Assembly: GCA_904374385.1 (NCBI GenBank)
Contig: CAJFGA010000004.1
Coordinates: forward strand, 1-50,503
DNA length: 50,503 bases
DNA from: an uncultured Clostridia bacterium
Lineage (GTDB): Bacteria > Bacillota > Clostridia > Christensenellales > Borkfalkiaceae
Direction: 5' to 3'
A model generated the notes under the pieces. The model did no database searches, was not told the DNA's origin, and saw only the letters and a program-made list of their open reading frames with translations. Shown here piece by piece: positions 1,274 through 32,751 of the stretch. The translations under genes were made by a program, and so were the position numbers. Position 1 is the first letter of the stretch. Every line of letters begins with the position of its first letter.

Positions 1274-1498
1274 ATGGAACGGAAAGAAGATACTCCCGTG
1301 CGTAAAACGCGCAGGAAGTACGAAGAAAAGAATAAAGAAAAGAGAAAGCAAGCGAGCGGCAATTTCGGAACGATGATACCGAGAGCCTTATATGATGAGA
1401 TAAACGCATTTCTCGAAGAAAACGGGATTACAAAAGTCCGGTTGATAAAAGAAGGCTACGAAGCCTTGAAAAATATGAAAAAGGACGGCAAATTGTAA
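1274..1498 (+). CDS. Small ribbon-helix-helix-like protein
   Basis: A 74-residue, very basic protein. The first 30 residues are Lys/Arg-rich. The rest (NFGTMIPRALYDEINAFL, then ENGITKVRLIKEGYEAL) looks like a short beta-strand plus two helices, as in MetJ/Arc or CopG-type DNA-binding proteins. GGAGG (1260-1264) sits nine bases before the ATG. It lies between the relaxase and recombinase genes, under its own promoter with an inverted repeat over the -10 box. A role as element repressor or partition-type regulator is inferred from fold resemblance only; it could also be a relaxase accessory protein. Confidence 0.55.
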   Translation: MERKEDTPVRKTRRKYEEKNKEKRKQASGNFGTMIPRALYDEINAFLEENGITKVRLIKEGYEALKNMKKDGKL

Positions 1499-1557
1499 AA
1501 CTGCCGCCCATTCCTGCCGTTTTGCGTAAATAAATCATTGATAAGGAGATTATATTT

Positions 1558-1845
1558 ACGGAAAACACGGCTAAAAACATAAAGCAAAACACAAAACCAA
1601 AAGCAAGTATATTTACCGTTTATAAGAAGGAACCAAACGGTGAATACACGCGAACCCGCGAAAGAGTTCTCGGCAATACGGTTTATACCATTATTTCTCA
1701 CGAAAAACAGAACGTCGGCGTTACGGCGTTCGATATTACGAAAACGTTGATAGAACGAAATATAGACGAGGCGTTAAAACCCGCCGTTCATATCACGGAT
1801 CGGTTATCGTTTGAAAGTTGCAATTCGGGAGGTAATAAACAATGA
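1558..1845 (+). CDS. Small TnpW-like element protein with non-ATG start
   Basis: An uninterrupted 95-codon frame that ends in TGA inside the ATGA that opens the recombinase gene, the usual sign of translational coupling. AAGGAG (1543-1548) is followed after nine bases by ACG (1558), exactly where ATG would be expected; no ATG or GTG lies near it, and the only in-frame TTG is more than 60 codons in. The product is basic at the N-terminus and has a central RVLGNTVYTIISHE segment reminiscent of small TnpW-type proteins encoded beside TnpX-like recombinases in Clostridia. That family assignment is a resemblance, not a search result. ATG-to-ACG is a single transition, so this may be a recently lost start or genuine ACG initiation. 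Confidence 0.5.
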   Translation, partial: TENTAKNIKQNTKPKASIFTVYKKEPNGEYTRTRERVLGNTVYTIISHEKQNVGVTAFDITKTLIERNIDEALKPAVHITDRLSFESCNSGGNKQ

Positions 1846-9177: not shown

Positions 9178-9209
9178 GCGCCCTCCGGCCTGTACAGGCC
9201 GGAGGGCGC
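9178..9209. terminator. Bidirectional hairpin between araC and the ROK gene
   Basis: A perfect 32-base palindrome centred on TGTACA, running outwards through GGCC and GAGGGCGC. ATTTCTCTATT follows on the plus strand. It separates convergent genes and probably ends both transcripts. Confidence 0.75.
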
Positions 9210-9245: not shown

Positions 9246-10454
9246 TTACGCTTCCCTCCGCAAATTTATATCCATGCGGCGGCGGGTGATCAAGATATCA
9301 AACGCCGCTTCGATCGCATGAAACACGGCGCCCAGCAACACGGAATTGTCCGTGCGGGAAAACAGAACTTCCGCCGACCGCGCGGCCAGCATCTCGTTGC
9401 CTTTGATCTGCTGTAAATACGCATCGCCGAAAGCGCGCACGCGCCCGGACAAAATGATGCGGTCGGTATCCAATATATCGATCAAGCTGACGATCAGCCT
9501 GGCAACGATGTCTGCCGAGCGCAGCACGATCTTACGGACGGCAGGCTGGCCTTCCTGAAATTTTTTGACGACATCGCGAAAACGAAATTTTTCCGCAAAG
9601 ATCTGCTCGCCGCTCTCCCTCTGATAGGAGCGGATCTTGTCTTTCAGCGCATTGATCGATACGATGCAGTCGTACGGCTGTTCGCTGCCGTCATCGTCTA
9701 CCGTGACGGCCAATCCGAATTCGCCCGCGAACCCGTTCCGCCCCGATAAGATATTGCCGTCGGACAGAATCGCGCCGCCGATACCGGAATCGATGTACAG
9801 CAGCACGGCGTCGTTTTTATCCGCCCCGCGCAGCGCACCGTATTTTTTTTCGGCGAGCAGCGAAAGATCCATATCGTTTTTGACCAGCACCTTGACGTCG
9901 AACCGCTTTTCAAAAAACTCCTTCAAATTGATATCGCGGCAATTGTAAAATTTAGGAGATGCTACGATGTCGCCCGTTCTCTTATCGACCTTACCGGAAG
10001 CGCCGATGCAGAGGCAGAGCAATTCCCGCCCCTGCACGCATTTATCCTGCAGGAGGGAAGTAAGGATATCCGCCACTTTGCCGAGGATCTCTTCCGTAAT
10101 AAATTCAGAGTCGATCAACTCTCGCACGAGGATCTCTTGCCCGGACAGGCTGTACAGCCCGATGCGGATATCGACGGTGGAAAAGTCGATCGCCGCGACG
10201 ACGCCCACATTTTCGTTGATGGCCAAATACGACTTTTTGCGCCCCAGCGCATAGGAGCGGCGATCCTTGCTGCCGTTGGAAACGATCAGCCCCAATTCCA
10301 GCATTTCCGAAGTGATCTTGGTCATCGCGGGCTTACTGAGCAGCAACTTTTCCGCGAGATCGGAGCATGACATACTGTTTTCGAGCAATGAAAACAAGAT
10401 CAGCTTCATGTTGTTGTCTCTGACTATCGTTTGATTTTGACCTTTATTGACCAT
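9246..10454 (-). CDS. ROK-family transcriptional repressor
   Basis: A 402-residue ROK (NagC/XylR-type) regulator. A winged helix-turn-helix (about residues 16-65, SCSDLAEKLLLSKPAMTKI) precedes a sugar-kinase-like sensor domain with the family motif IDSGIGGAILSDG and NGFAGEFG. The cysteine-rich zinc site (CxCGxxGC) found in most ROK proteins is missing; only one Cys lies in that region. It is the last gene of the glucan operon, 64 bp after the GH94-like gene. ROK repressors bind AT-rich inverted repeats, and the repeated TTAACAAAGTTAA near 22.74 and 22.89 kb is the best candidate target. The effector is probably a glucose or oligosaccharide derivative (inference). Confidence 0.92.
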   Translation of the reverse strand: MVNKGQNQTIVRDNNMKLILFSLLENSMSCSDLAEKLLLSKPAMTKITSEMLELGLIVSNGSKDRRSYALGRKKSYLAINENVGVVAAIDFSTVDIRIGLYSLSGQEILVRELIDSEFITEEILGKVADILTSLLQDKCVQGRELLCLCIGASGKVDKRTGDIVASPKFYNCRDINLKEFFEKRFDVKVLVKNDMDLSLLAEKKYGALRGADKNDAVLLYIDSGIGGAILSDGNILSGRNGFAGEFGLAVTVDDDGSEQPYDCIVSINALKDKIRSYQRESGEQIFAEKFRFRDVVKKFQEGQPAVRKIVLRSADIVARLIVSLIDILDTDRIILSGRVRAFGDAYLQQIKGNEMLAARSAEVLFSRTDNSVLLGAVFHAIEAAFDILITRRRMDINLRREA

Positions 10455-10518
10455 AACCGTTATGCCTCTCTATCAACCTTCTCATATATGATTGCCGTGA
10501 TTACTTTAATATTATAAA

Positions 10519-13092
10519 TCAATCAACGACAGAAATCAACAATTTTTGTAAGTTCCGCATTTCCTCATGTAGAATAATTTTATCTGCATGGATGCCGCCG
10601 GACTCCGGTTTATACTCAGTGCCGTTGACAAAAAACGCTCTCTTTCCCCTTCCCTCTTTGCGGTATTGCAGCGTGACCAAACACTGCTTGATGCGCAATT
10701 TGATCGAGCAATTTTCAAAGGGAATATAGGCGGCCGGCTGTACGACCAGCCCGTCTAAAGAGGGCTGCAAGCCAAACACAAACCGGATAAACGTTTTGAT
10801 CAAAACGTTCGCGCTGCCCGTAAACCAGTCGGACATCGATTCGCCGTCCATGCCGAATTCTTCGTTATATACATATGAGTTGGACATGACGAAGGGAGAC
10901 GTCGAAATTTTTTTGTGCGTCAGCGGCAGCACCTTTTCGATCTGTTCAAAGGCCAAGCGGCTTTCATTGACCATAAAGAGCGACCAAATGCCGAACATCG
11001 TAGCATGTATGTACGTTGCGGCATTTTCGGCCGTGCCTTTGGGCAGATTGATGATGCGCCCCACGCCGCGCACATCCTTCGCAAAGTACGGTTCAAACGT
11101 CTTTAAGCCGTACTTGCTGTCTAACCGGCGGTAACTTTCGAGAACATCTTTCTTCAAAGAAGGATCCCAATCGATGGCGCCGCTGATAATCCAGTACGCA
11201 TTGACGACGAGACCGTCGCGCGCTTTTCCGTCTACATCGCAAAAGCCGCCGACTTGATAGCTGTATTTATCTCCCCAACCGTGCAAGATCCTGCGCTCCT
11301 CGCCTTTTTGGACGATCGCATATTTTTTCAATCCCTCTTTGAGCAGTTCGCGCGTCTTGCCGTATTCTTCGATATACCGATCATAACCGCCGACTTTTTC
11401 GAGGATCTCGCTCATCTCTTTGAGATTGGCATATAACTGCAGCGTCGCCATGACGGAAACGCCCGTGCCGTATTCCTTGCCCTTGTCCTCGGTAGTGCCC
11501 AGTCCGTCCAGCGCGTCGTTCCAATCGCCGTACATGATGCGCAGGCAATGTGTCTGCTCATAGTCGATATGATCGATCAAATATTTCGTGATCGCCAAAA
11601 GGTGGTCGAGAACGGTATCGCGCCGATCTGTCAGTTTTACGGTGCCATCGGTAAAGTCGAGATAGCCGCACATCTCGCGGAGGATCGAATAATCTTCCGT
11701 ATAGCACAGATATTGGTATACGGTGTTGATGACCCAAACCCCTTGATCGATGAACGCGCGCAGATCCATCTGCGGGACGGCGCCTTCGCAGGGGGGTAGG
11801 GAATACTGCCGCGGCAGACGACCGTCGACATTGGTAAAGGAGAGCGCTTCGAGGATCTTGGCGCGGCACGCCTTCGGATCCCATATGAGGCACGCCTCGA
11901 GCTGCTGGAATACGTCGCGTATGCCCAAAAGGGAAACGCCCGAATTTTTCGCCAAGGCGCAATACCATACCTGCCGCTGTACGTTATGCAAAAAATAAGA
12001 CAAAAGATCGCCGTCTACCATGCCTTCGAGGCTCTTGCCGAACTGCATATCCATCATGTCGGGCGTGTCGTACTTTTCGACGGCGATGCGCGTCTGCTCG
12101 GCGATCTCTTCGTCGATCTGCGCTGCGTCGTCGGGCAATGCCGCCCTTTCCACACAGGCAGGGTCTGCATCGGGGAACACCTTCAGGATATAATCCGCCC
12201 GGAACATTTCCCCGCCCTTCAGCTTGAATTTCAACAGATCGCCCGCTGCCGCCGTATCGGTAAAATTGCATGCGAGCCGTCCCTGTTCAAAGGTGCCCGT
12301 AAAGAGGGGCGCAGCGCAATTCAAACAATTGGATTTGCCGCCGACAAAATCGGCGCGCGAGGTCGTGACACAGCGCGAAAGCCCTTCTCTGTTCGGCGCA
12401 TTCACTTGCAGCACGGCAAAATTGTTCAGATGCGTTTTGCGGTCGAGATCGACCACACTGTGAAAATAAAAGCGATTTCCCTCTGCCTTGCACGACTTGA
12501 ACCATTTTGTTTCGTTGCTTTCATACGGAGAATACATCAACAGGCAGTTGAAAAAGCCGGAAAGATATAAATCTTGTTCCTTTTTCGTCCTGTTGACGGC
12601 GAGCAGGGAAAAGACCGTCTGTTTATCCTTTCCGTCACCGTTATAGCCGCGCAGGCAAAAATCCGCCTCTTTGGCTCTGGCAATATAATAGACGCATTTG
12701 GGCGTAAACACGGTATAGCGGCGCACTGCCTCGATGGGCTGCCGCGCCACACCCGTCACCGAAACGGGCTCATACCTCTCCCCCCTTTTTATGCCGCCGA
12801 AAAAGGCAAGATACGGTTCTTTCCCCTCGTCGCTGGGCTGTATCGCATAAAAGGTGCTTTCGTTGAGCGACATGTTGCCCGACGAATGCGCCCATAGCGT
12901 ATAGCCGCCCGTCCCATAAGGATAGCGGCTGTCGCCCGACCCGCGGGGATAGCACAAAACGGTATCCCTGTCTAAAAAATAACACTTTTCCGGCAACGGT
13001 TTCGCCGAAGAATGTCCGCCTTCTAAAGCCTCGATTTGATCAATCAAACGGGCAAACTCTTCATAATACACAATAACCTTGCTCCTACGCAC
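10519..13092 (-). CDS. GH94-like carbohydrate phosphorylase
   Basis: An 857-residue enzyme of the glycoside-phosphorylase clan. It shows an N-terminal beta-sandwich (about 30-320) and an (alpha/alpha)6 barrel with YGDWNDALDG (521-530). By analogy with cellobiose phosphorylase, Asp526 is the proton donor. SDWFTGSANVLIKTFIRFV and the LDGLVVQP segment near the end match the GH94 C-terminal core. Such enzymes split beta-glucosidic bonds with phosphate to give alpha-glucose 1-phosphate. No signal peptide, so cytoplasmic. It overlaps the upstream mutase gene by 8 bp. The sequence departs from textbook cellobiose phosphorylases, especially in the N-terminal part, so linkage specificity (1,4, 1,3 or 1,2) is open, and a neighbouring phosphorylase family is possible. 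Confidence 0.8.
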   Translation of the reverse strand: MRRSKVIVYYEEFARLIDQIEALEGGHSSAKPLPEKCYFLDRDTVLCYPRGSGDSRYPYGTGGYTLWAHSSGNMSLNESTFYAIQPSDEGKEPYLAFFGGIKRGERYEPVSVTGVARQPIEAVRRYTVFTPKCVYYIARAKEADFCLRGYNGDGKDKQTVFSLLAVNRTKKEQDLYLSGFFNCLLMYSPYESNETKWFKSCKAEGNRFYFHSVVDLDRKTHLNNFAVLQVNAPNREGLSRCVTTSRADFVGGKSNCLNCAAPLFTGTFEQGRLACNFTDTAAAGDLLKFKLKGGEMFRADYILKVFPDADPACVERAALPDDAAQIDEEIAEQTRIAVEKYDTPDMMDMQFGKSLEGMVDGDLLSYFLHNVQRQVWYCALAKNSGVSLLGIRDVFQQLEACLIWDPKACRAKILEALSFTNVDGRLPRQYSLPPCEGAVPQMDLRAFIDQGVWVINTVYQYLCYTEDYSILREMCGYLDFTDGTVKLTDRRDTVLDHLLAITKYLIDHIDYEQTHCLRIMYGDWNDALDGLGTTEDKGKEYGTGVSVMATLQLYANLKEMSEILEKVGGYDRYIEEYGKTRELLKEGLKKYAIVQKGEERRILHGWGDKYSYQVGGFCDVDGKARDGLVVNAYWIISGAIDWDPSLKKDVLESYRRLDSKYGLKTFEPYFAKDVRGVGRIINLPKGTAENAATYIHATMFGIWSLFMVNESRLAFEQIEKVLPLTHKKISTSPFVMSNSYVYNEEFGMDGESMSDWFTGSANVLIKTFIRFVFGLQPSLDGLVVQPAAYIPFENCSIKLRIKQCLVTLQYRKEGRGKRAFFVNGTEYKPESGGIHADKIILHEEMRNLQKLLISVVD

Positions 13093-14482
13093 TCAAAAAT
13101 TTTTTTACGGCAGAGATCTGCCCGTCGCTCTCATCGGCCGACTTCATCTCTGCAAATACGCGCACGACCGGCTCGGTGCCGCTCATACGGATGAGCACCC
13201 AGCAATCGTCGTCGAAATAATACTTATAGTTGGAATTGAACTGCTGCATGCGCACGATCGGCCCGTCAAATGCGGGCGCGGCGCCCTCCAGCTGCTTTTT
13301 GACGCGATCCATCTCGCTGAACGTGAGCGTTTCCTCTTCGATCGCATGGTCGTACCCCGCAAAATCGTGTACTTCGCGCACGATTTCTGATACGGGTTTG
13401 CCCATGCGGATGACCATCTCCATAAAGAGAGAGGCGGAAAAGACGCTGTCCTTTCCCATGACATAGCCGCGCACCGTCAAACCGCCAGAGCTTTCTCCGC
13501 CGATCAGCGCATCCGTTTCCAGCATTTTAGAGGAAATATTTTTGAATCCGACATCGACCTCGTGGCAGCGATACCCCAATTTCTCCGCTACCCTATCCAC
13601 TAAAATACTCGTCGCACAGTTTTTGACGATGTCCCCTTTCATCCCGCGATACCGCACGAGATAGTAATAGAGGCAAGCGAGAATGTCGTTGCTGTCTACA
13701 TATTGCCCCTTTTCGTCTAATACGCCGAGCCGATCGCTGTCGCTGTCCGTCGCGATGGCGAAATCATAACCGCCTTCCAAGACGCGCCCGCGCATGCTGA
13801 GCATCATCTCTTTGGTCGGATTGGGCAGCACGCCGCCGAAGAACGCGTCGCGCTTGTCGTTGATCACGTCAAACTGCGCGATGCCGTATTCCGCCGCGAG
13901 CGGCTTTAAACATACCGCCCCCACGCCGAACAGATCGTTGTATAATATTTTCGCATGATTGTTCTTTATGCTTTCGTCGATAAACGACTTGATGTTGTCA
14001 AAATACTGTCTTTTAAAACTTACTTTTTGAATGAATCCCTTCGCCGTACCCTCTTCCGAAGAGATCGCCTGCACCGAGCGGATCGCCGCGCACTCCTTTT
14101 CGATCTCTCCCGTAAACGCGACATCGGCATCGACGCCGCCCTTCATAAACAATTTGACGCCGCTGTAATAATACGGATTATGGCTCGCCGTGATCATTAC
14201 GCCATAGTCGAGCTGCTCATTTTTGACGACGCTCATAATCGCCGGCGTCGGCATCGCCTCGTCGTACAGCCAACATTGCATCCCGTTGCCGGCAAGCACT
14301 TCCGCCGCCCATACCCCCGCAAATTCGGAGGCAAAGCGATAATCGTACCCGACGATGACTGGCTTTGTACTGCCGCTCCTTTTTGCCATGTTGCAGAGCG
14401 CCTGGATGCAGAGCTGCACGTTTTCCTTTGTAAAATCGACCCCGATCACCCCTCGGAAGCCGCCCGTTCCAAATTTGATCAT
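13085..14482 (-). CDS. Alpha-D-phosphohexomutase (PGM/PMM type)
   Basis: Interconverts hexose 1-phosphate and 6-phosphate in the cytoplasm. All four family loops are present in 465 residues: phosphoserine TASHNP (Ser100), metal loop DSDSDR (246-251), sugar loop GGESSGG (328-334) and phosphate-binding RMSGTEP (432-438). It is distinct from the GlmM encoded at 44-45 kb. Its 8-bp overlap with the GH94-like gene indicates coupled translation and a joint role: the phosphorylase releases sugar 1-phosphate, and this enzyme feeds it into glycolysis. Preference for glucose rather than mannose is inferred from that partner. Confidence 0.9.
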   Translation of the reverse strand: MIKFGTGGFRGVIGVDFTKENVQLCIQALCNMAKRSGSTKPVIVGYDYRFASEFAGVWAAEVLAGNGMQCWLYDEAMPTPAIMSVVKNEQLDYGVMITASHNPYYYSGVKLFMKGGVDADVAFTGEIEKECAAIRSVQAISSEEGTAKGFIQKVSFKRQYFDNIKSFIDESIKNNHAKILYNDLFGVGAVCLKPLAAEYGIAQFDVINDKRDAFFGGVLPNPTKEMMLSMRGRVLEGGYDFAIATDSDSDRLGVLDEKGQYVDSNDILACLYYYLVRYRGMKGDIVKNCATSILVDRVAEKLGYRCHEVDVGFKNISSKMLETDALIGGESSGGLTVRGYVMGKDSVFSASLFMEMVIRMGKPVSEIVREVHDFAGYDHAIEEETLTFSEMDRVKKQLEGAAPAFDGPIVRMQQFNSNYKYYFDDDCWVLIRMSGTEPVVRVFAEMKSADESDGQISAVKKFLSA

Positions 14483-14511
14483 ATGATGTATTTTTTTCTC
14501 CCTGAAAGGGA

Positions 14512-14565
14512 GGGGCGGGCGTCGCCGTCCGCCCCCGTTCTCTGTTTTCCCGCACTGCCGTGCGG
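14512..14565 (-). other. Intercistronic hairpins inside the glucan operon
   Basis: In the 94-bp gap between the GLUG lipoprotein gene and the mutase gene, GGGGCGG (14512-14518) pairs with CCGCCCC (14529-14535), and CCGCAC (14550-14555) with GTGCGG (14560-14565). Neither has a T tract, so they look like mRNA-stabilising or processing structures that could uncouple levels of the surface genes from the enzyme genes. This is the only large gap between these two groups. Confidence 0.45.
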
Positions 14566-14576
14566 CTGTTTTGCCG

Positions 14577-17500
14577 TTAATCCTGCACCCTCAAAGTCGG
14601 ATAGCTGCCGTCCTGAATGTTCCAGATATCGGAATCGAACGCGCTATACAGAGAAGCCTGCTGCATCTCTGCAGTATTTTTTAAGCTGCTTGCCAAGATG
14701 CTGCCGTCCCCGTTTGCCCCGACTGCCGTAGCCCCGTTGAGCTGCGTGTCAATAAACACATTGCTGACGCTGCCGTTGACCGCACCGCCGATCGCGCCGA
14801 TCGTCTGCTGCCAACCGGAAGGAGTATATCCGGAGAGGTCTGCCGTTCCCAAAACGATGGAATTGCGGAAAGAAGCATCGCCGGGCGCCGCCTCCGGAGC
14901 TAAGCATCCGAACACAAGTCCGACAGCCTGGTTGGGTGCGCTCATCTCAATATCGATGATGCAATTTTCGACGATGCCCCTGTTGAACCAAGTGGCCAAT
15001 CCGCCGACCCAGCTTTGTCCTCCTAACGTGATTTTGCCTTCCAATCTGAGGTTTTTGATGACGACCGTATCTGCCGTCGCCGCTTCGACCGTCTGGAACA
15101 AGCCGTTCGTCGTAGAGGTCAATCCGCTGATGGTATGGCCGCGGCCGTCAAAGGTGCCCGTAAAGGTGAGGATCCCCGTCCAATCGCTGTACCCGCTCAG
15201 ATCGATATCCGCCGCGAGGTAATAGTCGCGCGACAGGTCTGCGCCTTCCTGCGTCAGCGCATACAATTCTTCCGGCGTAGAAATGGCAACTGCCGTGGAT
15301 GCCGTGGTGCTGATCACCTTTTCAGCCGTCTGGCCTTCATATGTGGCGATGACGGTAAAGGCGGTACCGGGCACAAAATCATCGGCAAATTCGATCAAAC
15401 CGCTTGCGCTGACCGTGACCCCCGTGACGGAGCCCTGCAGTGCAAAGGCCGCCTCGACATTGCCCGCCGTAAATTCTTTTGCCTGCAATTGATAGGTGGG
15501 ATTCGCCACGACGTCGATCACGCCGCTGAAATCGATATAGACGTATGTTTCCGTCGGCGGCGCCACAAACCCGTCATGGATAAGCGTCGGCCAGCTTGCA
15601 TCCTGTTTATGCCAGAATTCGTCGGGAAGCATCTCGTCCGTAAAGGTTGCCGCCGTGCGCATTTCGATATCGGTATACAGCGCACAGGTGTCTACGGTAG
15701 GAGCATATACGGTCAACTTATCGGCGCCGCTGTTGGACGCATCGACATAGCAATACTGCATGGTGCCGTTATTCGCAATGGCAAACCCGCCCGCGGTTGT
15801 AACGTTGCCGCCTGTATTCACTTTTCCGACCGATACGCAATGACGGATCGTCGTTTGATTCGGATTGGTATCGGCAGAGTTGACGCCTACAAAGCCGCCG
15901 ACGCGCAGTCCGGATTCCGTCGTAATATCGACGTCGACAAAGCAATTTTCAATGATGCCGCGCTGGAAAGTTCCGACCAAGCCGCCGGCCCAAGAAGGCG
16001 ATCCGGCGATCGTGCCGATCAATTTCAAATTCTTGACGGCAACCGTATCTGTGCTCGCCGCATTGATAAATCCGAACAAGCCGGCACCGCCCGTTGCGCC
16101 CGTCCTTGTAAGTCCGCTGATGGTGTAGCCCTGCCCGTCAAACGTGCCCGTAAACGGCGATGTTTCATTGCCGATGCCGGGCCAGTTGTACTCGGAAATG
16201 TCGATATCGTTCATCAAGATGATATCGCCGCTGAGGAACATGCTCTCCGTTGCGACGCGGTAGAGATCCTGCGCGGTGCGCACGCGGAAAATGTTTGTTT
16301 CGGCAAAGTCGTTGTTGAGCAAACGGAACGTGACGTTTGCGGAAACGGAAGGGGCCGCCTTGAGCTTTGCCACGACCGTGATGGGCGTATAATCCGCCAC
16401 AAGTTCTCGGTCAAATGTCATCAGGCCAGTATTCGCGTCGATGTTGACGCCGTCGACCGGCTCTGCGAGAGAGAATTCCACAGAACGGTCCTCAATGCCG
16501 GAAATTTCTACCGTCACCTGATAATCGTATACGGTGTTGATGTCAAGATCGTTCGAACCGCTCGTGATCGCGATAAACGGCTCTTCTTCGCCGCCTTCGA
16601 ATTCATCGTTGATCAGCTGAGGATAATTTCCGTTGGTGATCGACCAAATTTCCGTATCCCATCCGTCAAAGGTGGAAGCCGTCTGCATTTCGGCAGTGGT
16701 GCGCATGATCTCGTTATTTTTGATCGCGCCGAGAATGGTCTGATAGTTGTCCGTCGTCATCGCTTCTTTATCGCCGAAGCAGGAGGTCACCGACCCCGCA
16801 TTGACGAACAAGCCGGCGCTGCGCTGAGAAGAATTGTCTGCGCTCGAAGTGATCTTGCCGGTGCAGAAGCTGTACTCTACCCTGCCGCGGTTAACGCTGA
16901 CAAGGCCGCCGGCGGGCGCACCCGTCAGCTCGACGTCGATATCGCTCCAAACATTGGAGATCAACCCGTCGTTGATCGCGGCGACGCCGCCGCACCAACG
17001 AACCGCCTTGATCGAGCCTTCCAATTTGACATTTTTAACTTCGCCGCTGCCGCCGATCTGTTCGAAGAACCCGAGCACTTCGCCGATCGTGCCGGCTTCG
17101 GGATCCACGTTCGTATTCTCATACTGAATATTGCTGATGGTGTAGCCGTTGCCGTCAAACACGCCGTTGAAAGGTTCCGCCGGGCTGATAATGGCGCCCG
17201 TGTCGTCCTCCTTTTCGGAAGAGCCGATCGGCTCCCAAGGCTGCGTGAGTTCGATGTCGTTCATCAAAATATAGCTGCCGTTGAGATCCATATTGCGCAG
17301 CTCTTCTTCCGTCGTAATGGGCGTGCCCTCTACTTCGGGAATGTCGAGCGTATAATTACGGGTCACATAGACGGCCGAATCGTATGTGGACGTCGCGCGG
17401 ACTGTGATGACGGCGCCGTCGGTCGCGTTCGAACCGACCGTCAGCACATTGCCGTCCGCCCCGCCGACGGAAACGCCGGTGGTATCCTCGCCCGAAACCA

Positions 17501-17726
17501 TCCAGCGGACACCCTGGTCCGCCTGTGCGGGTTTGACCTTCGCTTCCAGCGTATATTCGCCGGGCGTAAACGTTGTATTGGTGCCGAGGATCTCGATGCT
17601 GTCCGCATCCGCATGGCGGATCTCGCTGTTATTGCCGTTCCCCTGCTGCCCGCATGCCGCGAGCGTAAAGGAGAGCGCGCACAGAAGCGCGAGCACGAAA
17701 GCCCATAAAACTCTGACTCTTTTCAT
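14577..17726 (-). CDS. GLUG-repeat surface lipoprotein
   Basis: A 1049-residue secreted lipoprotein (signal peptide with lipobox LAAC, Cys near residue 25). It has a Big/Ig-like domain (about 40-130) and three blocks (about 136-375, 480-720, 825-1049). Each block starts with a DIxL/ISxY segment and F-x-G-x-FDGxGYTISG, continues with GLUG-type strands (GGLVGTFQRGIIENC) and ends near MxTAxTF...W..TL. Ig-like linkers separate the blocks. GLUG repeats occur in surface adhesins and proteases, and their function is poorly known. The second ATG was chosen because AGGAGG is six bases before it. It is seven bases after the GH16 gene, so a role in holding the polysaccharide or anchoring GH16 at the surface is inferred. 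No catalytic motif was seen. Confidence 0.85.
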   Translation of the reverse strand: MKRVRVLWAFVLALLCALSFTLAACGQQGNGNNSEIRHADADSIEILGTNTTFTPGEYTLEAKVKPAQADQGVRWMVSGEDTTGVSVGGADGNVLTVGSNATDGAVITVRATSTYDSAVYVTRNYTLDIPEVEGTPITTEEELRNMDLNGSYILMNDIELTQPWEPIGSSEKEDDTGAIISPAEPFNGVFDGNGYTISNIQYENTNVDPEAGTIGEVLGFFEQIGGSGEVKNVKLEGSIKAVRWCGGVAAINDGLISNVWSDIDVELTGAPAGGLVSVNRGRVEYSFCTGKITSSADNSSQRSAGLFVNAGSVTSCFGDKEAMTTDNYQTILGAIKNNEIMRTTAEMQTASTFDGWDTEIWSITNGNYPQLINDEFEGGEEEPFIAITSGSNDLDINTVYDYQVTVEISGIEDRSVEFSLAEPVDGVNIDANTGLMTFDRELVADYTPITVVAKLKAAPSVSANVTFRLLNNDFAETNIFRVRTAQDLYRVATESMFLSGDIILMNDIDISEYNWPGIGNETSPFTGTFDGQGYTISGLTRTGATGGAGLFGFINAASTDTVAVKNLKLIGTIAGSPSWAGGLVGTFQRGIIENCFVDVDITTESGLRVGGFVGVNSADTNPNQTTIRHCVSVGKVNTGGNVTTAGGFAIANNGTMQYCYVDASNSGADKLTVYAPTVDTCALYTDIEMRTAATFTDEMLPDEFWHKQDASWPTLIHDGFVAPPTETYVYIDFSGVIDVVANPTYQLQAKEFTAGNVEAAFALQGSVTGVTVSASGLIEFADDFVPGTAFTVIATYEGQTAEKVISTTASTAVAISTPEELYALTQEGADLSRDYYLAADIDLSGYSDWTGILTFTGTFDGRGHTISGLTSTTNGLFQTVEAATADTVVIKNLRLEGKITLGGQSWVGGLATWFNRGIVENCIIDIEMSAPNQAVGLVFGCLAPEAAPGDASFRNSIVLGTADLSGYTPSGWQQTIGAIGGAVNGSVSNVFIDTQLNGATAVGANGDGSILASSLKNTAEMQQASLYSAFDSDIWNIQDGSYPTLRVQD

Positions 17727-17736
17727 CATATACCTC

Positions 17737-19329
17737 CTAACCCAGATCGATCACGCGGTGCATGCTGATCGAATCGAACAGCGCGATGGCATTTTCTCCG
17801 GCGCTGCGCAAAACAAGGCGCATTTGCACGGATCCTTCGGGAGCCGTGACGCTGCCGCTGAACTCTGCAAACGCATCGCCTTCCGCTACGGTAAAGGTCT
17901 GCGCTTCGCCGATGACCGCACCCGTTTCATCCAAAAATTCTATCGCAAATTCCGCCTGTCCGCCGGAAACTCTCGCGCTGCCGCTCAACGTATATTCGAA
18001 GCCGCCGTAAACGGCGCCGATCGTCTGCGTCGCGGAAGAATCGGCGATCAAACGATATGCCCTGTCGCTGTTCGTATAGTCGGTCGCGATGATGCCCGAA
18101 CGCTGATCGGAATCATCGGAAAGCGTCCATGCGGACGCGATGCCGCTGAAATCGCTGTTGGAAACGATCTCGACCGCGTTTTCATCCAAGGTGATCGGCT
18201 CGGTCGGGAAAGAGTTTTCGCTCGCCACAGAGCGCTCCAAATATTCTTCGTTCGCTTCAATAACGCCGTCCTCCGCCGTTTCGTCGTAAGGCGTATAGGC
18301 GACCCAGTCGATGAGCATGTCAGACGTTTCGTATTCGGGAACGCCCGCCCAGTTGTTGGGCAGCCAAACGCCGATCCAAAGCTGTGCCTCGTACGGAGAG
18401 ATCGTCGTATTGGATTCAAAAGTGAGAACGTCGTCGATGTAGTATCTTACATAATTGTCTTTGACGCTCCACTCGATGCCGTATTTGTGCCATTTGCCGT
18501 CATTCTGCGGGCCGAGCCCCTTTTCGGAAAGGTCGACCGTCGCGTGCGTGTTGGTGCTTTCGCTCGTATAGTTGGTATTCATCACGCTGTCATACCCGAT
18601 GCGGCCGTTCAGCGTGCCGGGGAACTCGATATCGATCTCGGAGTTGACGTTGCCGCCGTCCTGATAATAGTAAGTCCAAATCGCCGAGCACATGCCGAGG
18701 CGGGGCGAAATCTTGGCGGCCACTTCAAACTTGCCGGGGCCGAGCGCCTCTTTGGTCGCAATGGCGGCACCTGTGTTGCGTTCGCTCGAATTTTCCCAAT
18801 ACATGCCCTTGGAAGAGAGAACGAGAATGCCGTCCGCCGTGTAATTGACATTGCTGGCGTTTACGCCGTTGAAGGACGGGTTGCCGCCCCATGTTTTGTT
18901 GACGATATCCCATTTGCCGTCCGGCGAGATGCCGTTTTCGAAATCGTCATAAAGGCTTCCGTCGGTAGGCGCGGGGATGCGCGTTTTGTCCGCGGGCTCT
19001 ACGGGCTGTGCGGGCTGTTCGACCGCCGTTGCCGTAAAGTCAGCATCTTCGCGCGCAAAGCTGACCGTGAGAGATTCGGGCATAAACGTATACCCCTCCA
19101 AAACAGGCGTCACCGTGACTTCTTCCGTAAAATCCCCGATCGAATAGACGCCGTTCGCATCGGTCGTATCCATAGATTCACCGTCGACGAGGATGGAAAC
19201 ACCGGCAAGCCCGACGCCGTCGCACTTGATGGTGCCCCCTACGGGAGAGCCCGTATCCTCTATGCCGCCGCATGCCGCAAGGCCGAAGGCAAGCAGTACG
19301 GCACAGCAGAGAGCGAGTAGTTTTTTCAT
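17737..19329 (-). CDS. GH16 family beta-glucanase lipoprotein
   Basis: A surface-anchored endo-glucanase (signal peptide, lipobox LAAC, Cys20). An Ig-like module (about 29-100, GVGLAGVSILVDG) is followed by the GH16 beta-jelly-roll (about 125-350) with the catalytic NSEIDIEF (Glu231, Asp233, Glu235) and a C-terminal carbohydrate-binding-like beta-sandwich (about 380-530). The uninterrupted E-I-D-I-E strand is the form typical of lichenase-type GH16 enzymes, whereas most laminarinases carry an extra residue (EIDxME). Mixed-linkage beta-1,3-1,4-glucan is therefore a plausible substrate, but related GH16 activities cannot be excluded. It follows the permease gene by 15 bp and precedes the GLUG gene by about 10 bp. 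Confidence 0.9.
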   Translation of the reverse strand: MKKLLALCCAVLLAFGLAACGGIEDTGSPVGGTIKCDGVGLAGVSILVDGESMDTTDANGVYSIGDFTEEVTVTPVLEGYTFMPESLTVSFAREDADFTATAVEQPAQPVEPADKTRIPAPTDGSLYDDFENGISPDGKWDIVNKTWGGNPSFNGVNASNVNYTADGILVLSSKGMYWENSSERNTGAAIATKEALGPGKFEVAAKISPRLGMCSAIWTYYYQDGGNVNSEIDIEFPGTLNGRIGYDSVMNTNYTSESTNTHATVDLSEKGLGPQNDGKWHKYGIEWSVKDNYVRYYIDDVLTFESNTTISPYEAQLWIGVWLPNNWAGVPEYETSDMLIDWVAYTPYDETAEDGVIEANEEYLERSVASENSFPTEPITLDENAVEIVSNSDFSGIASAWTLSDDSDQRSGIIATDYTNSDRAYRLIADSSATQTIGAVYGGFEYTLSGSARVSGGQAEFAIEFLDETGAVIGEAQTFTVAEGDAFAEFSGSVTAPEGSVQMRLVLRSAGENAIALFDSISMHRVIDLG

Positions 19330-19344
19330 ACAATTCCTCCTTTT

Positions 19345-20286
19345 TTATCCTTTCAGCCCGCCTGCGACCGTGTTCTCCATGATGGTTTTTTGGAAACAGA
19401 TGAACACGACGAGGATCGGGATCAAAGCAATGATCATCGTTGCGAACATTTCGGGATAAGCCGACTGTCCGCGCAATTCACTGAGAAGCAGGTTCACGCC
19501 GACTGCCAACGTGGGCAACCTGGGCAGATAGATCGAGGGGGTCACATAATCGTTCCACAGCCCGATCGCATGGATGACGCCGACCGCGATGAGCGCGGGC
19601 TTTGCCATCGGAAGCATGATCCTGAAAAAGATGCCGAAATCGGAGCAGCCGTCGATGAGCGCCGCCTCGGCATATTCCCAAGACAGGTTTTTGAAAAATC
19701 CGTACAGGATTAAAAAGTTAAAGCCGAAGCCGCTCGCATACAGTATGAGCACGCCGACGATCGAGTTGGTCAGGTGCAGTGTCTGCATGATGTTGTACTG
19801 TGCGGGAAGCGTGCCTGCCACGGGCACCGCCATGACGAACACGGCTAGCGCGTACAGCGCATTGCGGCCTATGAACTTATACTTAGAGATGACATATGCC
19901 GCGATCGAAGACATCAGCAAGCTGAGCACCGTGCCGCAGATCGTGACGATGATGCTGATGCCGAACATACCGATCAGAGATACGTTGTGCACTTCGTAAT
20001 TGAGGAGCACGTTCGTATAATTTTCGATATGAAAGCTCTGCGGGAACGCCCAAATATTCTGAAAGTATTCCTGATTGGATTTGACCGAGTTGAACAGCAT
20101 CCACACAAACGGGAATACCAAGGTGACCGCATAGAGAAAAAATACGGCGAACACAACCCACAGCGCCCAATCTTTGGTGATTTTTCGGTGCGGCTTTTTA
20201 AGTTTCTCTGCATCGATGATCCGCTCCTCTGCGGAGCGGATCCCGTCCTCGGGGCGGGCATTCGACGCTATCATGTTTTCATTCAT
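19345..20286 (-). CDS. Sugar ABC transporter permease, MalG type
   Basis: A 313-residue inner-membrane subunit of a CUT1-family importer, with about six membrane spans and the cytoplasmic EAA loop (YAEAALIDGCSDFGIFFRI) that contacts the ATPase. It ends with the typical MENTVAGGLKG tail. GAGGAGG precedes the ATG. It pairs with the permease gene 12 bp upstream. No ATP-binding subunit is encoded in this operon; in Firmicutes CUT1 systems a shared MsmK/MalK-type ATPase usually serves several transporters, so it is expected elsewhere in the genome. Confidence 0.93.
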   Translation of the reverse strand: MNENMIASNARPEDGIRSAEERIIDAEKLKKPHRKITKDWALWVVFAVFFLYAVTLVFPFVWMLFNSVKSNQEYFQNIWAFPQSFHIENYTNVLLNYEVHNVSLIGMFGISIIVTICGTVLSLLMSSIAAYVISKYKFIGRNALYALAVFVMAVPVAGTLPAQYNIMQTLHLTNSIVGVLILYASGFGFNFLILYGFFKNLSWEYAEAALIDGCSDFGIFFRIMLPMAKPALIAVGVIHAIGLWNDYVTPSIYLPRLPTLAVGVNLLLSELRGQSAYPEMFATMIIALIPILVVFICFQKTIMENTVAGGLKG

Positions 20287-20298
20287 AGTTTGCCCTCC

Positions 20299-21285
20299 TC
20301 AATACTCTACATCCGCGAACGGCTTGCCCATCGCCCATTTGATGACGAGAATGATGGGCACGCCGATGACAGACATCGCCAAGCCGAATGCCGAAAGGTA
20401 CGGCAGGTTGCGGCCGTTGAGCACGCCGTTGTAGATCATCAGCGCGATCGTCTGCGTATCCGAACTGCCCGGCGTGAGCATCAACGGCTGCATCATGACC
20501 GTGAACACAGAAGTGCAGCCCAATACGAACGTCGTCGAAATCGTCGGCCAAACCAAGGGAATGGCAATTTGGAACAATTCGCGGGCTTTGCTGACGCCTT
20601 CCAGTTTGGAATACTCCATGATCTCTACGGGGATACGGCTAATCGCGCCAGAAATAAGCACGATATTTGTGCCGAGGCCCGCCCAAATACAGTAGGCAAA
20701 GATCATGATCTGATTGTTCGGATACTGGCCGAACCAAGAGGGAATGTGATCCACGCCCAGCGCGCGCAAGATCGGGTTAACAAAGCCGAGCGTCGCGTCA
20801 AACGAAAACGAGAAAGTCATCGTCAGCACTGCCACCGGGATAATGGACGGCAGGAAAAAGATGACGCGGAATGCCGCGGAACCGGGCACCTTTTTGTACA
20901 AAAAATACGAAAAAAGGATGGAAAGCGGCAAACTTATGAAGCAAGTGACCGGAAAATACAGCACCGAGTTGATGACGGCGCGGCGCGTAACGGCCGACTC
21001 TCCGCCAATCTCGCGAAATACGCGGATAAAATTATCGAATCCGTTAAAGATGTACTTTCCGCTCGACCAATCGAATTCCTGGAACGCCATGATGATCGTG
21101 TTCACGTTGACCAGGAACCAGAAAATAAAAAGCTGTATCAGCGGCAAGGCGAGCATCACGACAATGAAGATCAGCTTGCGCTTTTTTCTGTTGAGGCGGT
21201 GCCCACGCGGCGGTTTTTCCGAATTCGGCTGTTCGGCCGTATATTCGTTTTCCGCCGTCACGGCGTTTTCCAGGCGGATACTCAT
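20299..21285 (-). CDS. Sugar ABC transporter permease, MalF type
   Basis: A roughly 328-residue membrane subunit with six predicted spans. The first follows a charged N-terminal tail (HRLNRKKRKLIFIVVML). The EAA loop reads IMEYSKLEGVSKARELF. The ATG chosen overlaps the TGA of the binding-protein gene (ATGA); another ATG nine bases earlier is also possible. With its partner permease it forms the channel for oligosaccharides delivered by the lipoprotein encoded just upstream. Confidence 0.92.
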   Translation of the reverse strand: MSIRLENAVTAENEYTAEQPNSEKPPRGHRLNRKKRKLIFIVVMLALPLIQLFIFWFLVNVNTIIMAFQEFDWSSGKYIFNGFDNFIRVFREIGGESAVTRRAVINSVLYFPVTCFISLPLSILFSYFLYKKVPGSAAFRVIFFLPSIIPVAVLTMTFSFSFDATLGFVNPILRALGVDHIPSWFGQYPNNQIMIFAYCIWAGLGTNIVLISGAISRIPVEIMEYSKLEGVSKARELFQIAIPLVWPTISTTFVLGCTSVFTVMMQPLMLTPGSSDTQTIALMIYNGVLNGRNLPYLSAFGLAMSVIGVPIILVIKWAMGKPFADVEY

Positions 21286-22706
21286 TCGAACCATTCACTC
21301 CATCTGCTTACAATCGATTCATAGTTGCTTTGGTAAAGCGCATCGATATCCGTATTGGGATCGGCGACGAGGGAGGCATAGTGCTGTACGCCTTCGATCG
21401 GCCAGTCAAGGCTCAAAAAGCCTTCCAAAACGGGCATCGCGGAAGACAGAAGATCGAACTTCTGGCTGTTGGCGTTGATGTTATACACGCTCTTCATAAA
21501 ATCCGTCGCTTCGTCGTCCAGCGTGACATTGCTGTAATCGGCAGCGAGCTGCACGCCGTACGTCTCTTCGGAGAAGAGCTTGAGATTGTCGTCGCGGAAC
21601 ATGAATACGAGGAACTGCTTGGCGGTATCCTTATGCGGCGCGTCCGCGGGGATCAAAATGCTGTCGCCCGAGTTGGTGGAGCCGACCGAATAGTTCACCG
21701 CGATGGGATCGCCGTTTTCGTCCGTCTTGGCGCCGTCAATGAAGGGGGTGGGCATCAAGTCCATCACGCAGGTCGATTCATCATAGTTGCCCATCATGCC
21801 CGATTCGAGCCACTGCGCACAGGGGATCATCGCGGCGCGGCCGGTAACGAACTCCATCTGCGCGGCGGTGTACTGCTTGCCGGCGCAGTCTTCCATGCTG
21901 TATTCGGGATGATCCGCGATCAGGTTTTTCCACGCTTTCAGCGCTTCTTTCTGTTCAGGGCTGGTCGTGGGATTGAATACTTCCGGGGAACCGAGCTGGG
22001 TATACGCTTCGATCTTGTCTACCCCGGCAAGCTGTGCCCACCAATCGAATACGACGTAATCCCAATAATATGTTTCGCTGCTCCATACGAACGGCTTGAC
22101 ATCTCCGTTGGTATCGTCGAGGATCACTTCGCAGAGCTCCAAAAGGCCGACCGCACCGACGTTCGGATCGCAGGTCGGGTTGGCGGGATTGGAATATACG
22201 GTGGGAACAGACCAACCGTAATCTTCAAACATCTTTTTGTTATAGACCAGGCCGCCCGTGCCGTTCGTCCAAGCGACTTTATAATAATGGTCGTTGAAAC
22301 GCGCGGCGGTGCGGAACTGCGGCAAAACCTTGCTGCCGAAGGTGACGCCGTCGCTCACTTCCATTTCATACAGATCGTCCAAAGGTTCCAGCATACCCTG
22401 CGCCGCGTACAGTTCCCAAGTGATGCCGTGGCTGAAGAAAAGGTCGTCGTCGCTGCCGTTCTGCAAGCGGTTGGGGATTTCCGACTGCAAATTCGGATTC
22501 GCCTCCACTTCTACGACAAGGCCGGTTTCTTCTTCGAACTTTCTGGCAAGTGCGTTGATCCATCTTTGCCCATATTCTTTATGGACAACGGCGATCTTGA
22601 GATCGTAAGGGCTGTTCTCGCCGCATGCCGCAAACATGACACCGACGGAAAGAGCCATGACGACCGCCATGATCAAGACAAAAAACTTCAGAACTTTGTT
22701 TTTCAT
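21282..22706 (-). CDS. Sugar-binding lipoprotein of the ABC importer
   Basis: A 474-residue family-1 extracellular solute-binding protein: signal peptide with lipobox FAAC (Cys28), then two alpha/beta lobes (NALARKFEEETGLVVEV; GTGGLVYNKKMFEDYG; VTGRAAMIPCAQWLESGMM), all typical of CUT1 systems. It captures oligosaccharides at the membrane surface for the two permeases encoded downstream. It is the first gene of the operon, with GGAGG before ATG and a consensus promoter plus operator upstream. Ligand specificity cannot be read from sequence; beta-gluco-oligosaccharides are inferred from the GH16 and phosphorylase neighbours. Confidence 0.92.
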   Translation of the reverse strand: MKNKVLKFFVLIMAVVMALSVGVMFAACGENSPYDLKIAVVHKEYGQRWINALARKFEEETGLVVEVEANPNLQSEIPNRLQNGSDDDLFFSHGITWELYAAQGMLEPLDDLYEMEVSDGVTFGSKVLPQFRTAARFNDHYYKVAWTNGTGGLVYNKKMFEDYGWSVPTVYSNPANPTCDPNVGAVGLLELCEVILDDTNGDVKPFVWSSETYYWDYVVFDWWAQLAGVDKIEAYTQLGSPEVFNPTTSPEQKEALKAWKNLIADHPEYSMEDCAGKQYTAAQMEFVTGRAAMIPCAQWLESGMMGNYDESTCVMDLMPTPFIDGAKTDENGDPIAVNYSVGSTNSGDSILIPADAPHKDTAKQFLVFMFRDDNLKLFSEETYGVQLAADYSNVTLDDEATDFMKSVYNINANSQKFDLLSSAMPVLEGFLSLDWPIEGVQHYASLVADPNTDIDALYQSNYESIVSRWSEWFE

Positions 22707-22730
22707 AACTTTCCTCCGTTAGAATTATTT

Positions 22731-22784
22731 TTAACAAAGTTAATTAACTATTTTGAGTATACTACCGTTTTTCTCATTTGTCAA
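22731..22784 (-). promoter_or_regulatory. Glucan operon promoter and operator O1
   Basis: Minus-strand TTGACA (22784-22779), a 17-nt spacer and TATACT (22761-22756). The predicted start is near 22749. Just downstream lies the palindrome TTAAC-AAA-GTTAA (22731-22743), embedded in TTAACAAAGTTAATTAACTA. A protein bound there would block early elongation. The same core occurs at the divergent promoter. Confidence 0.8.
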
Positions 22785-22847
22785 CAGTATTTTTAAATTT
22801 TTCACAAAAAATTTTTTACTTTCACAAAACAAATTTTAAAATCTGTA

Positions 22848-22897
22848 TTGACAGAACGCGGGATACATGATATAATATAATTAGTTAACAAAGTTAA
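22848..22897 (+). promoter_or_regulatory. Divergent GH16 promoter and operator O2
   Basis: TTGACA (22848-22853), 17 nt and TATAAT (22871-22876) make a perfect consensus promoter. The predicted start is about 22883. TTAAC-AAA-GTTAA (22885-22897) follows immediately. The shared core between O1 and O2 extends to TTAACAAAGTTAATT, in the same orientation, which ties both transcripts to one regulator, most likely the ROK protein. Confidence 0.8.
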
Positions 22898-22933
22898 TTT
22901 AATAAAATCATTATTATTTCTTCGAGGTAATCC

Positions 22934-24265
22934 ATGAAAAAAACTGCGATTTTGCTTTCGGGGGCTTTTTTGCTTGCGGCGGCGTTCCCACTGTTGGCTG
23001 CCTGCGAAGGCGGCACTTCGTCCGAATTTGACCCCGACGCCAATTTAGACACGGAAAATGTGTTCTTTGACGATTTTACAGAGGGCGTCCGATCGGAATA
23101 CTGGAATATCGGCAATTCTAAATGGGGAACGGACAACGGCGGCGTACTGCCCGAAAACGTAAAATATACGGAAGACGGCATCTTGATCCTGCAATGCAAC
23201 GGCGACAATTATGTGGGCGAATTGCGCGGGCACGGCAACGACCACGGCAGAAGGACGGGCGCACAGATTATTTCGAGAGAGTATTTCGGGCCGGGGCGGT
23301 TTGAAGTACGGATGAAATGCCTGCCCCGTTTTGGTTCAACCACCGCTTTTTGGACATATTACAATAACGGCGCAAACAACTATGAGATCGATATTGAACT
23401 CAACGTAGAACAGGATTTTACCAAAGTTTGGAACACCAACTGGCTCACCCTCGAACAGACGGACCACTATGTGGCGGAATCCCCTATCGTCAACAATGAC
23501 GGAGAGTGGCACACCTATAAATTCGAATGGCATACAAATCCTGCGCGCATCGACTACTATATCGACGACGTTTTGACGCACACTTCGCAGGTATTTGTCC
23601 CCGATGTGGCGATGCCGATCAATATCGGCAACTGGTTCCCTTCCGGTTGGGCAGGGTCGCCCGATTTTGAAACGGATTATACTTTCGTCGATTGGTTCCG
23701 CTATACCCCCTACTTAAACAATGACTATACGGCGATGGAAAAAGACGCCGCTTCGCCGGACGAGTTGTATCCGGCCGAGCCGGTAGAACTGCCCGTTGCA
23801 AATTTAATATCCAACGCGCAGATGGAAAGCGACCTCGAGATCCCCATCAGCAATTCCGTTGCGGGCATGAACGCCTGGAGGCAGGGACGCGCGGGCGAAG
23901 TCGCATTCGTCGCAGGCGGCGGGATCGACGGTTCGAGCGCCATAGAGATCAAAGACGGGCACAGCGTCTACCAATACATTTCCGGCATGCACGAATCGTT
24001 TGAACTGACGCTGCGCGGTTCTGCCAAAACGATCAGCGGCAGCGGCAGGATCGTGATCGAGTGTATGCCCCTGTATACGCAGACTTTGCAGGAATACACG
24101 ATCGAATTTTCCGACTGCGCCGACTTTACAGAAAAATCGCTGACCTTTACCCTGCCCGAAGGAACGCAGCGGCTGCGCATTTCGCTCGAAGCGGACGAAG
24201 GCAGTGACGTCATGTTCGACAATTTGTTCTGCAATTTGACCAAAAAGATGGCGCAAAGCGCTTAA
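22934..24265 (+). CDS. Second GH16 family glucanase lipoprotein
   Basis: A 443-residue surface lipoprotein (lipobox LAAC, Cys24). The GH16 domain (about 42-270) has the catalytic YEIDIEL motif (Glu151, Asp153, Glu155), again without the laminarinase-type extra residue. A C-terminal beta-sandwich (about 290-440) resembles carbohydrate-binding modules and the tail of the first GH16 protein. It lacks the N-terminal Ig-like module of that protein. It is alone on its transcript, divergent from the transporter operon, and shares the operator, so the two GH16 enzymes should be co-induced. They may differ in where along the glucan they cut. Confidence 0.9.
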   Translation: MKKTAILLSGAFLLAAAFPLLAACEGGTSSEFDPDANLDTENVFFDDFTEGVRSEYWNIGNSKWGTDNGGVLPENVKYTEDGILILQCNGDNYVGELRGHGNDHGRRTGAQIISREYFGPGRFEVRMKCLPRFGSTTAFWTYYNNGANNYEIDIELNVEQDFTKVWNTNWLTLEQTDHYVAESPIVNNDGEWHTYKFEWHTNPARIDYYIDDVLTHTSQVFVPDVAMPINIGNWFPSGWAGSPDFETDYTFVDWFRYTPYLNNDYTAMEKDAASPDELYPAEPVELPVANLISNAQMESDLEIPISNSVAGMNAWRQGRAGEVAFVAGGGIDGSSAIEIKDGHSVYQYISGMHESFELTLRGSAKTISGSGRIVIECMPLYTQTLQEYTIEFSDCADFTEKSLTFTLPEGTQRLRISLEADEGSDVMFDNLFCNLTKKMAQSA

Positions 24266-24274: not shown

Positions 24275-24308
24275 CCCCCTCTCCGCGTCTTACGGAGAGG
24301 GGGTTTTT
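24275..24308 (+). terminator. Intrinsic terminator after the second GH16 gene
   Basis: An 11-bp perfect stem (CCCCCTCTCCG, 24275-24285, with CGGAGAGGGGG, 24293-24303) followed by TTTTTAT. Confidence 0.88.
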
Positions 24309-32750: not shown

Positions 32751-32751
32751 T

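Follow-up and report, generated by a model that had tools for sequence, protein, structure and literature searches.

A conserved ROK-associated polysaccharide locus in a Borkfalkiaceae bacterium, with a GH94-clade phosphorylase that may release N-acetylglucosamine 1-phosphate

We found that the nine genes at positions 9246-24265 of a 50,503-nucleotide stretch of DNA from an uncultured Borkfalkiaceae bacterium (contig CAJFGA010000004.1; the whole stretch is referred to as the window) form a real, conserved module. We read it as a polysaccharide utilisation locus of a Gram-positive bacterium controlled by a ROK-family regulator, in which a GH94-superfamily phosphorylase would release N-acetylglucosamine 1-phosphate (GlcNAc-1-P) rather than glucose 1-phosphate (Glc-1-P), a reading to which we assign a probability of about 0.5. 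The original prediction, made from the same DNA, had described a complete beta-glucan utilization locus, and its choice of beta-glucan was drawn solely from the GH16 label of two enzymes. The genes are:

9246..10454, minus strand: ROK-family regulator, last gene of the operon (PF00480 1.1e-28 and a sub-threshold MarR-type helix-turn-helix match)
10519..13071, minus strand: GH94-superfamily phosphorylase, 850 aa from GTG 13071 (PF17167 1.3e-27)
13085..14482, minus strand: alpha-D-phosphohexomutase with PGM/PMM domains I-IV and the loops TASHNP and GESSGG
14577..17729, minus strand: GLUG-like lipoprotein with three related repeat blocks (PF07581 17.9 bits)
17737..19329, minus strand: GH16A, a lipoprotein with a small N-terminal domain, an EXDXE GH16 domain and a C-terminal region
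19345..20286, minus strand: permease 2, MalG/UgpE type (PF00528 2.1e-17)
20299..21285, minus strand: permease 1, MalF/UgpA type (PF00528 8.9e-13; Met4 start, the ORF caller beginning at 21294)
21282..22706, minus strand: solute-binding lipoprotein (SBP; PF01547, SBP_bac_1, 3.1e-22)
22934..24265, plus strand: GH16B, a divergently transcribed lipoprotein gene with a LAAC lipobox, an EXDXE licheninase-like GH16 domain and a C-terminal beta-sandwich

All nine open reading frames (ORFs) are present with the families predicted for them; eight give clear family matches, and the GLUG-like protein scores below the curated gathering cut-off of 20.5 bits. They are arranged as the divergent GH16B gene and an eight-gene operon (SBP, two permeases, GH16A, GLUG-like protein, mutase, phosphorylase, ROK), and the SBP, the GLUG-like protein and both GH16 proteins show lipoboxes that end in AAC. 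Contrary to the original claim, the locus is not complete, as neither an ATPase nor a beta-glucosidase gene lies within it. Elsewhere in the window's genome (1.96 Mb, 89.6% complete) we detected one gene with a MalK-type OB domain, two GH3 genes and four mutase-family genes, and a search with the phosphorylase of the locus returned a single phosphorylase match.

The gene order is kept in relatives, which places the module beyond chance. In genome G030 all nine genes are retained in place, with identities of 84% for SBP, 88% for the permeases, 70-71% for GH16A, 61% for the GLUG-like protein, 74% for the mutase, 77% for the phosphorylase, 71% for ROK and 74% for the divergent GH16B. Genome G036 keeps the eight-gene operon (SBP 79%, permeases 83% and 87%, GH16A 67%, GLUG-like protein 65%, mutase 79%, phosphorylase 76%, ROK 71%), and a short contig of G021 carries mutase, phosphorylase and ROK at 80-82%. 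More distant versions, in other gene orders, occur in G401, G006:C27, G032, G108, G481, G513 and G612. At E <= 1e-60 the phosphorylase clade is present in 26 of the 398 genomes of the family and in 7 of 396 drawn from the order; the 35 clade loci collected here belong to three families of the order and one Oscillospiraceae record. Besides the window, the 34 clade loci have nearby genes for GH16 (12), mutase (14), GLUG (11), ROK (10), SBP (10), permeases (16), NagA (5) and GH20 (6), as against 0, 0, 0, 0, 2, 8, 1 and 2, respectively, at 18 control loci with GH94 genes outside the clade; this comparison was not blind, as the markers were derived from the clade loci and the controls hand-picked from the search matches. 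Contig ends truncate the loci of G021, G276, G070, G203, G451, G346, G450, G440 and G254. A chance neighbourhood in place of one functional unit is very improbable: GH16B is a separate unit and ROK possibly has its own promoter, but the kept gene order, the differing control loci and the shared operators described below speak against it, and the same three findings uphold the predicted union of surface depolymerisation, ATP-binding cassette (ABC) import, phosphorolysis and mutase in a single regulated module.

A midpoint-rooted phosphorylase tree was built from 29 of the 35 loci, with G377 (in-frame TAG), G254 (a fragment), G513, G481, G612 and G504 omitted. The window's group of four is fully supported, and 12 rows labelled GH16-type group together (95/89) with G070 and the nagA-type pair G006:C12/G305; two of the 12, G021 and L039 (= G276), lie on contigs that end before a GH16 gene is reached. 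At locus L053 (11659-17252) a clade phosphorylase lies beside an FAD oxidoreductase and an alpha-L-rhamnosidase, the latter being 61% identical to the one at 5978-8140 of the window.

A profile search of solved structures with the phosphorylase returned GH94 enzymes only. Cellobionic acid phosphorylase was the best match (9.3e-26), followed by cellobiose phosphorylases (CBP), cyclic beta-1,2-glucan synthase, the GH94 enzyme of Blautia producta (BpGH94), and chitobiose (ChBP), cellodextrin and laminaribiose phosphorylases. The predicted model aligns with GH94 along almost its whole length, although it is of modest quality (predicted local distance difference test, pLDDT, 69.7; predicted template modelling score, pTM, 0.76; active-site loops below 50). 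The SOGP residues R630, D631, W758, D760 (the acid), E917, Y922, H924 and S1005 (PMC5309861) correspond here to R392, D393, W524, D526 (acid), E689, Y694, H696 and T758 in the numbering of an 857-aa protein, all invariant in 8 of 8 sequences, and the GH94 catalytic, subsite -1 and phosphate motifs are kept in 15 of 15 clade rows. Fold and residues support placement in the GH94 class, and phosphorolysis of oligosaccharides, as known from the 1,2-beta-oligoglucan phosphorylases (PMC5309861), is predicted for it. We also tried to derive the linkage from the fold and rejected this, with CBP, ChBP, BpGH94 and cyclic glucan synthase tied within about 1.5 Z. At the donor-site position, which is Tyr653 in CBP and BpGH94 and Val631 in ChBP (PMC10318527), 14 of 15 clade rows carry Leu (Leu683 here) and the remaining one, L041, carries Thr, as mapped via the CBP alignment.

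On the released sugar, the genomic context diverges from the original prediction. In G021, G030, G036 and G032, the gene that follows ROK in the same orientation, after a gap of 18-76 nt, encodes a PIG-L deacetylase (PF02585 56 bits, cut-off 28), and a deaminase gene comes next. In G021 and G030 the deaminase is NagB (TIGR00502 250 bits, cut-off 237); its place is taken in G036 and G032 by a NagB-II-like SIS protein. The G032 module is inserted between DAGK and PIG-L in a stretch that otherwise resembles that of G020, where ArgS, HAD, r225, DAGK, PIG-L, SIS and AAA follow one another without the module; therefore, this adjacency arose independently of that seen in the closest relatives. In G108 the mutase gene is followed by NagB (262 bits) and then by a MalK-type ATPase, and a nagA-like ORF with one internal TGA is located about 3 kb past the stretch, beyond the nagB and ATPase genes. 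Within the window's genome a PIG-L/SIS pair (80% and 69%) adjoins a sugar-kinase-like ORF at C71:3575-5521, and NagB gave no match there. An LmbE-like deacetylase serves chitin catabolism in Thermococcus (PMC4101496). PIG-L and NagB-II-like SIS genes are a common pair in the genus (L159 3575-5521, L161 205-3727, L162 6751-8677) and could stand in for nagA; at L161 the two flank a GH20C gene.

Other loci of the clade adjoin amino-sugar genes. In the sister loci G006:C12 and G305, genes for GLUG, GH20, NagA, mutase and phosphorylase stand in a row, with permeases seen only in G006:C12; G037 has MocA, a NagB-like protein, NagA and GH20C, and G392 has MocA, NagA and GH20C. The NagA of G006:C12 is under the cut-off (199.5 vs 225.65 bits) and that of G037 over it. 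Among 16 genomes searched, NagA over the cut-off was found in 10, including the GH16-context genomes G401, G006, G203, G346 and G108, and not in G000, G021, G030, G036, G032 or G451. GH16 and NagA contexts never coincide within the 34 clade stretches, the nagA-like ORF of G108 lying just outside its stretch. At the sister phosphorylase loci L050 (6941-14034) and L099 (8807-15654), GH20, NagA and mutase genes follow one another.

These adjoining deacetylase and deaminase genes led us to lower a glucose-type product from fairly probable to possible, and to raise a GlcNAc-type one from unlikely to about even. We prefer GlcNAc-1-P because of the repeated placement of the module by deacetylase/deaminase genes, the mutase shared with nagA-type loci, and the Leu at the donor site. 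Several observations weigh against it. Most characterised GH94 enzymes release Glc-1-P (PMC8950772), and the closest relatives of GH16A and GH16B are glucanases. The best NCBIfam match of the SBP is general (CPR_0540, 92 bits), with NgcE second at 83 bits against a cut-off of 400. The SIS protein, at 211 of 430 bits, stays under the NagB-II cut-off, and a GH1 beta-glucosidase gene follows in G036. The window's genome has no nagA over the cut-off, and its PIG-L/SIS pair is unlinked to the locus. Such pairs also occur in G004, G013, G020 and G022, all without the clade phosphorylase, and 8 of 12 GH16-context loci have neither PIG-L nor NagB in the stretch examined, several of these being cut by contig ends.

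The GH16 enzymes (PF00722 1.2e-14 for GH16A and 2.3e-16 for GH16B) carry the EXDXE strand without beta-bulge, seen in all 12 GH16 proteins examined and reading EIDIE in GH16A. Hallmarks of subfamily GH16_21 are Phe-92 at the -1 platform and Trp-103 (PMC6827312). Neither residue is present here, the first position being Trp in 12 of 12 and the second Asn in 11 and Tyr in one, so that GH16A and GH16B were left outside GH16_21. GH16B is nearest to licheninase-type structures, with XET and EG16 structures as weaker profile matches, and ExoK is a secondary NCBIfam match of both proteins (1.4e-7 and 1.6e-8). The GH16B model (pLDDT 71.5, pTM 0.67) barely tests the C-terminal part. By this resemblance GH16A and GH16B appear licheninase-like, with beta-glucan as a putative substrate; to this extent the predicted substrate stands, and it is put in doubt by the hexosamine-phosphate genes linked to the locus in relatives.

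In a rival glucose route, GH16A and GH16B would cut beta-glucan, most likely of mixed linkage, the phosphorylase would yield Glc-1-P and the mutase glucose 6-phosphate, with leftovers passed to the GH3 enzymes encoded elsewhere. This route, which we regard as possible and as the less favoured of the two, is consistent with the nearness of GH16B to licheninase-type structures, the Blautia producta precedent, the two GH3 genes, the GH1 gene adjoining the locus in G036, and the missing nagA in G000, G021, G030 and G036. Yet, we dropped the last point as evidence for glucose, as PIG-L and a deaminase beside the locus in four relatives make nagA unneeded. Leu683 at the donor site and the occurrence of the same mutase-phosphorylase pair, with the same sugar loop, in nagA-type loci also argue against this route, and with four mutase-family genes in the genome Glc-1-P would hardly need a dedicated mutase. 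A glucose-releasing locus for another polymer, e.g., a succinoglycan-type exopolysaccharide or xyloglucan, is improbable: the ExoK, XET and EG16 matches and the GH16_21 hallmarks, not all present, point that way, but licheninases rank first and the module contains no side-chain enzyme (the GH31 at 26341 lies outside).

The mutase does not settle the sugar. Phosphoglucosamine mutase (GlmM) has the loops SASHNP and GEQSGH, as does the paralog at 44087, as against TASHNP and GESSGG here, and the operon mutase reaches only 164 of 448 bits with TIGR01455, its best match being TIGR03990 (267 of 439). With these loops absent and the scores under the curated cut-offs, we rejected its assignment as GlmM. 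Sugar identity could not be taken from the mutase either, as the same loops occur in both GH16-type and nagA-type loci. At 42312-45541 of the window a glmS-like gene (SIS and GATase) overlaps a GlmM-like mutase gene (SASHNP/GEQSGH), likely a hexosamine synthesis pair.

In the GLUG-like lipoprotein, different repeat blocks match the same region of its counterparts in G030 and G036. It is likely a surface glycan-binding or scaffold protein.

The regulatory features of the locus are:

9178..9209, either strand: candidate terminator shared by ROK and the convergent AraC gene, a 14-bp hairpin between them
22731..22743, either strand: candidate ROK operator 1, TTAACAAAGTTAA, between the -10 element and the SBP start
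22756..22784, minus strand: SBP operon promoter, TTGACA-17-TATACT, 11/12
22848..22876, plus strand: GH16B promoter, TTGACA-17-TATAAT, 12/12
22885..22897, either strand: candidate ROK operator 2, TTAACAAAGTTAA, just downstream of the GH16B -10 element
24275..24303, plus strand: candidate GH16B terminator

Thus, the 227-bp divergent gap holds two identical, exact TTAACAAAGTTAA palindromes, and each of the two near-perfect promoters is followed by one of them after a few bases. Because of this position and repetition we consider the palindromes the likely ROK operator. The variant TTAACTAAGTTAA is found at the matching position before SBP in both G030 and G036. Shuffles of the gaps, covering regions chosen after the palindromes had been seen, reached the observed number of sites in 0, 3 and 8 of 5000 cases (0 of 5000 for the 227 bp of the window). 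When the whole genome is scanned, a somewhat longer version of the pattern matches exactly at one place and with a single mismatch at three more, among them the second site. Less favourable are the following results. With up to one mismatch the window has 3 matches, all exact and one of them distant (37759), vs a shuffle mean of 1.06, and 9 of 100 window shuffles reach 3; across the genome a backward control pattern outnumbers the palindrome pattern (10+13 vs 3+2). A general palindrome scan left the operator site outside the best six in the window and in G036, the palindrome is absent from the GH16B promoter of G030, and the scan of more distant relatives gave no convincing site. A further promoter-like site (10/12) at 10539-10511 could serve ROK alone.

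The general design of the locus is already known. That it is not a described textbook locus no longer holds in broad terms: the published mixed-linkage glucan locus of B. producta has a cell-anchored GH16, a GH94, an AraC regulator and an ABC transporter, and phosphorolysis of cellotriose and G4G3G was measured (PMC10318527). Both loci share a surface GH16, SBP-dependent ABC import, a cytoplasmic GH94, a local regulator and GH3 enzymes encoded elsewhere; as far as the accessible part of that paper goes, ROK instead of AraC, two GH16 lipoproteins, the GLUG lipoprotein and the dedicated mutase set the present one apart. Next to the module, neither G030 nor G036 has a match to the AraC gene at 8316, and the phosphorylase is 15-16% identical to 8bou in structural alignments. 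In Acholeplasma laidlawii a GH161, GH16 and GH3 cluster lies beside a GH94 laminaribiose phosphorylase cluster (PMC6484121). The likeness consists in a phosphorylase placed next to ATPase-less permeases and a GH16 enzyme, and loci of this type often lack ATPase genes; the phosphorylase families differ, and GLUG, mutase and ROK are not named in the accessible part of that report (PMC6484121). With the chitobiose phosphorylase VpChBP (1v7v) the enzyme shares the GH94 fold and residues, and release of GlcNAc-1-P would agree with linkage to a deacetylase and a deaminase, yet identity is 14% and the donor-site position is Leu here vs Val there. The chitin catabolism of Thermococcus uses an LmbE/PIG-L-family deacetylase (TkDAC) in a GlcNAc-glycan pathway, of which the PIG-L protein is a putative counterpart; the accessible part of that paper names no phosphorylase (PMC4101496). 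Among the open-licence literature matches listed, we found no GH16/GH94/ABC locus that also has a GLUG lipoprotein and a mutase gene of its own, nor the wording "GLUG motif" or "GLUG domain". What differs from known systems is the phosphorylase clade, the ROK operator pair, the dedicated mutase, the GLUG lipoprotein and the hexosamine linkage.

On the preferred GlcNAc-1-P reading, the locus may work as follows. With the substrate absent, ROK would block both divergent promoters at TTAACAAAGTTAA. The two surface GH16 lipoproteins would cut a beta-linked polysaccharide, a beta-glycan containing GlcNAc alone or with glucose, which the GLUG lipoprotein may hold at the wall. SBP and the two permeases would import the oligosaccharides, using a MalK-type ATPase encoded elsewhere, for which one gene was found. 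Phosphorolysis by the GH94-clade enzyme would give a sugar 1-phosphate, GlcNAc-1-P being likelier than Glc-1-P, and the mutase would convert it to the 6-phosphate. GlcNAc-6-phosphate could then be carried into glycolysis by the PIG-L deacetylase and glucosamine-6-phosphate deaminase. We more tentatively propose that an as yet uncharacterised GH94 clade releasing GlcNAc-1-P is paired with EXDXE GH16 enzymes of an unnamed subfamily attacking a GlcNAc-containing beta-glycan, with the GLUG lipoprotein as a Gram-positive surface glycan-binding protein. The nearest precedent for GH16 activity on GlcNAc glycans is provided by the fungal GH16_18/19 chitin-glucan enzymes; to our knowledge, bacterial non-bulge GH16s do not cover GlcNAc-containing beta-glycans. 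With this locus, phosphorolytic glycan use would reach a gut lineage that has received little study, and its ROK regulator is given a concrete candidate operator. If GlcNAc is the true product, GH94 would gain an activity and non-bulge GH16 enzymes a new target, and the case would show how a substrate guessed from glycosidase family alone can be overturned by genomic context.

Of the tight spacings in the original prediction, the ATGA overlap of SBP and permease 1 (21285-21282) is valid with the Met4 start of the permease, as in G036. The 8-bp mutase/phosphorylase overlap is an artefact of the start codon GTG 13092. The codon equivalent to GTG 13071 is used in G021, G030 and G036, the three closest relatives, and GTG 13071 has its own GTAGGAG, sitting over the mutase stop, which leaves a gap of 13 nt. 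The genes for AraC (8316), GH20C (24527) and GH31 (26341) were rejected as members of the locus, having no match beside the module in G030 and G036. A 98-base tRNA-Gly called by ARAGORN at 17412-17509, inside the GLUG coding sequence, is probably spurious, and the Rfam scan gave no match at gathering thresholds.

Elsewhere in the window, a 504-aa ORF without a Pfam match (30681-32195) lies beside split pyruvate ferredoxin oxidoreductase genes (32214-34686), and a 1390-aa minus-strand ORF at 36150-40322, with only a sub-threshold zinc-finger match, is overlapped by a 1008-aa ORF on the opposite strand. At its left end (47-3515), genes for a Mob_Pre relaxase and for a large serine recombinase (Resolvase, Recombinase, DUF4368) suggest an integrated mobile element.

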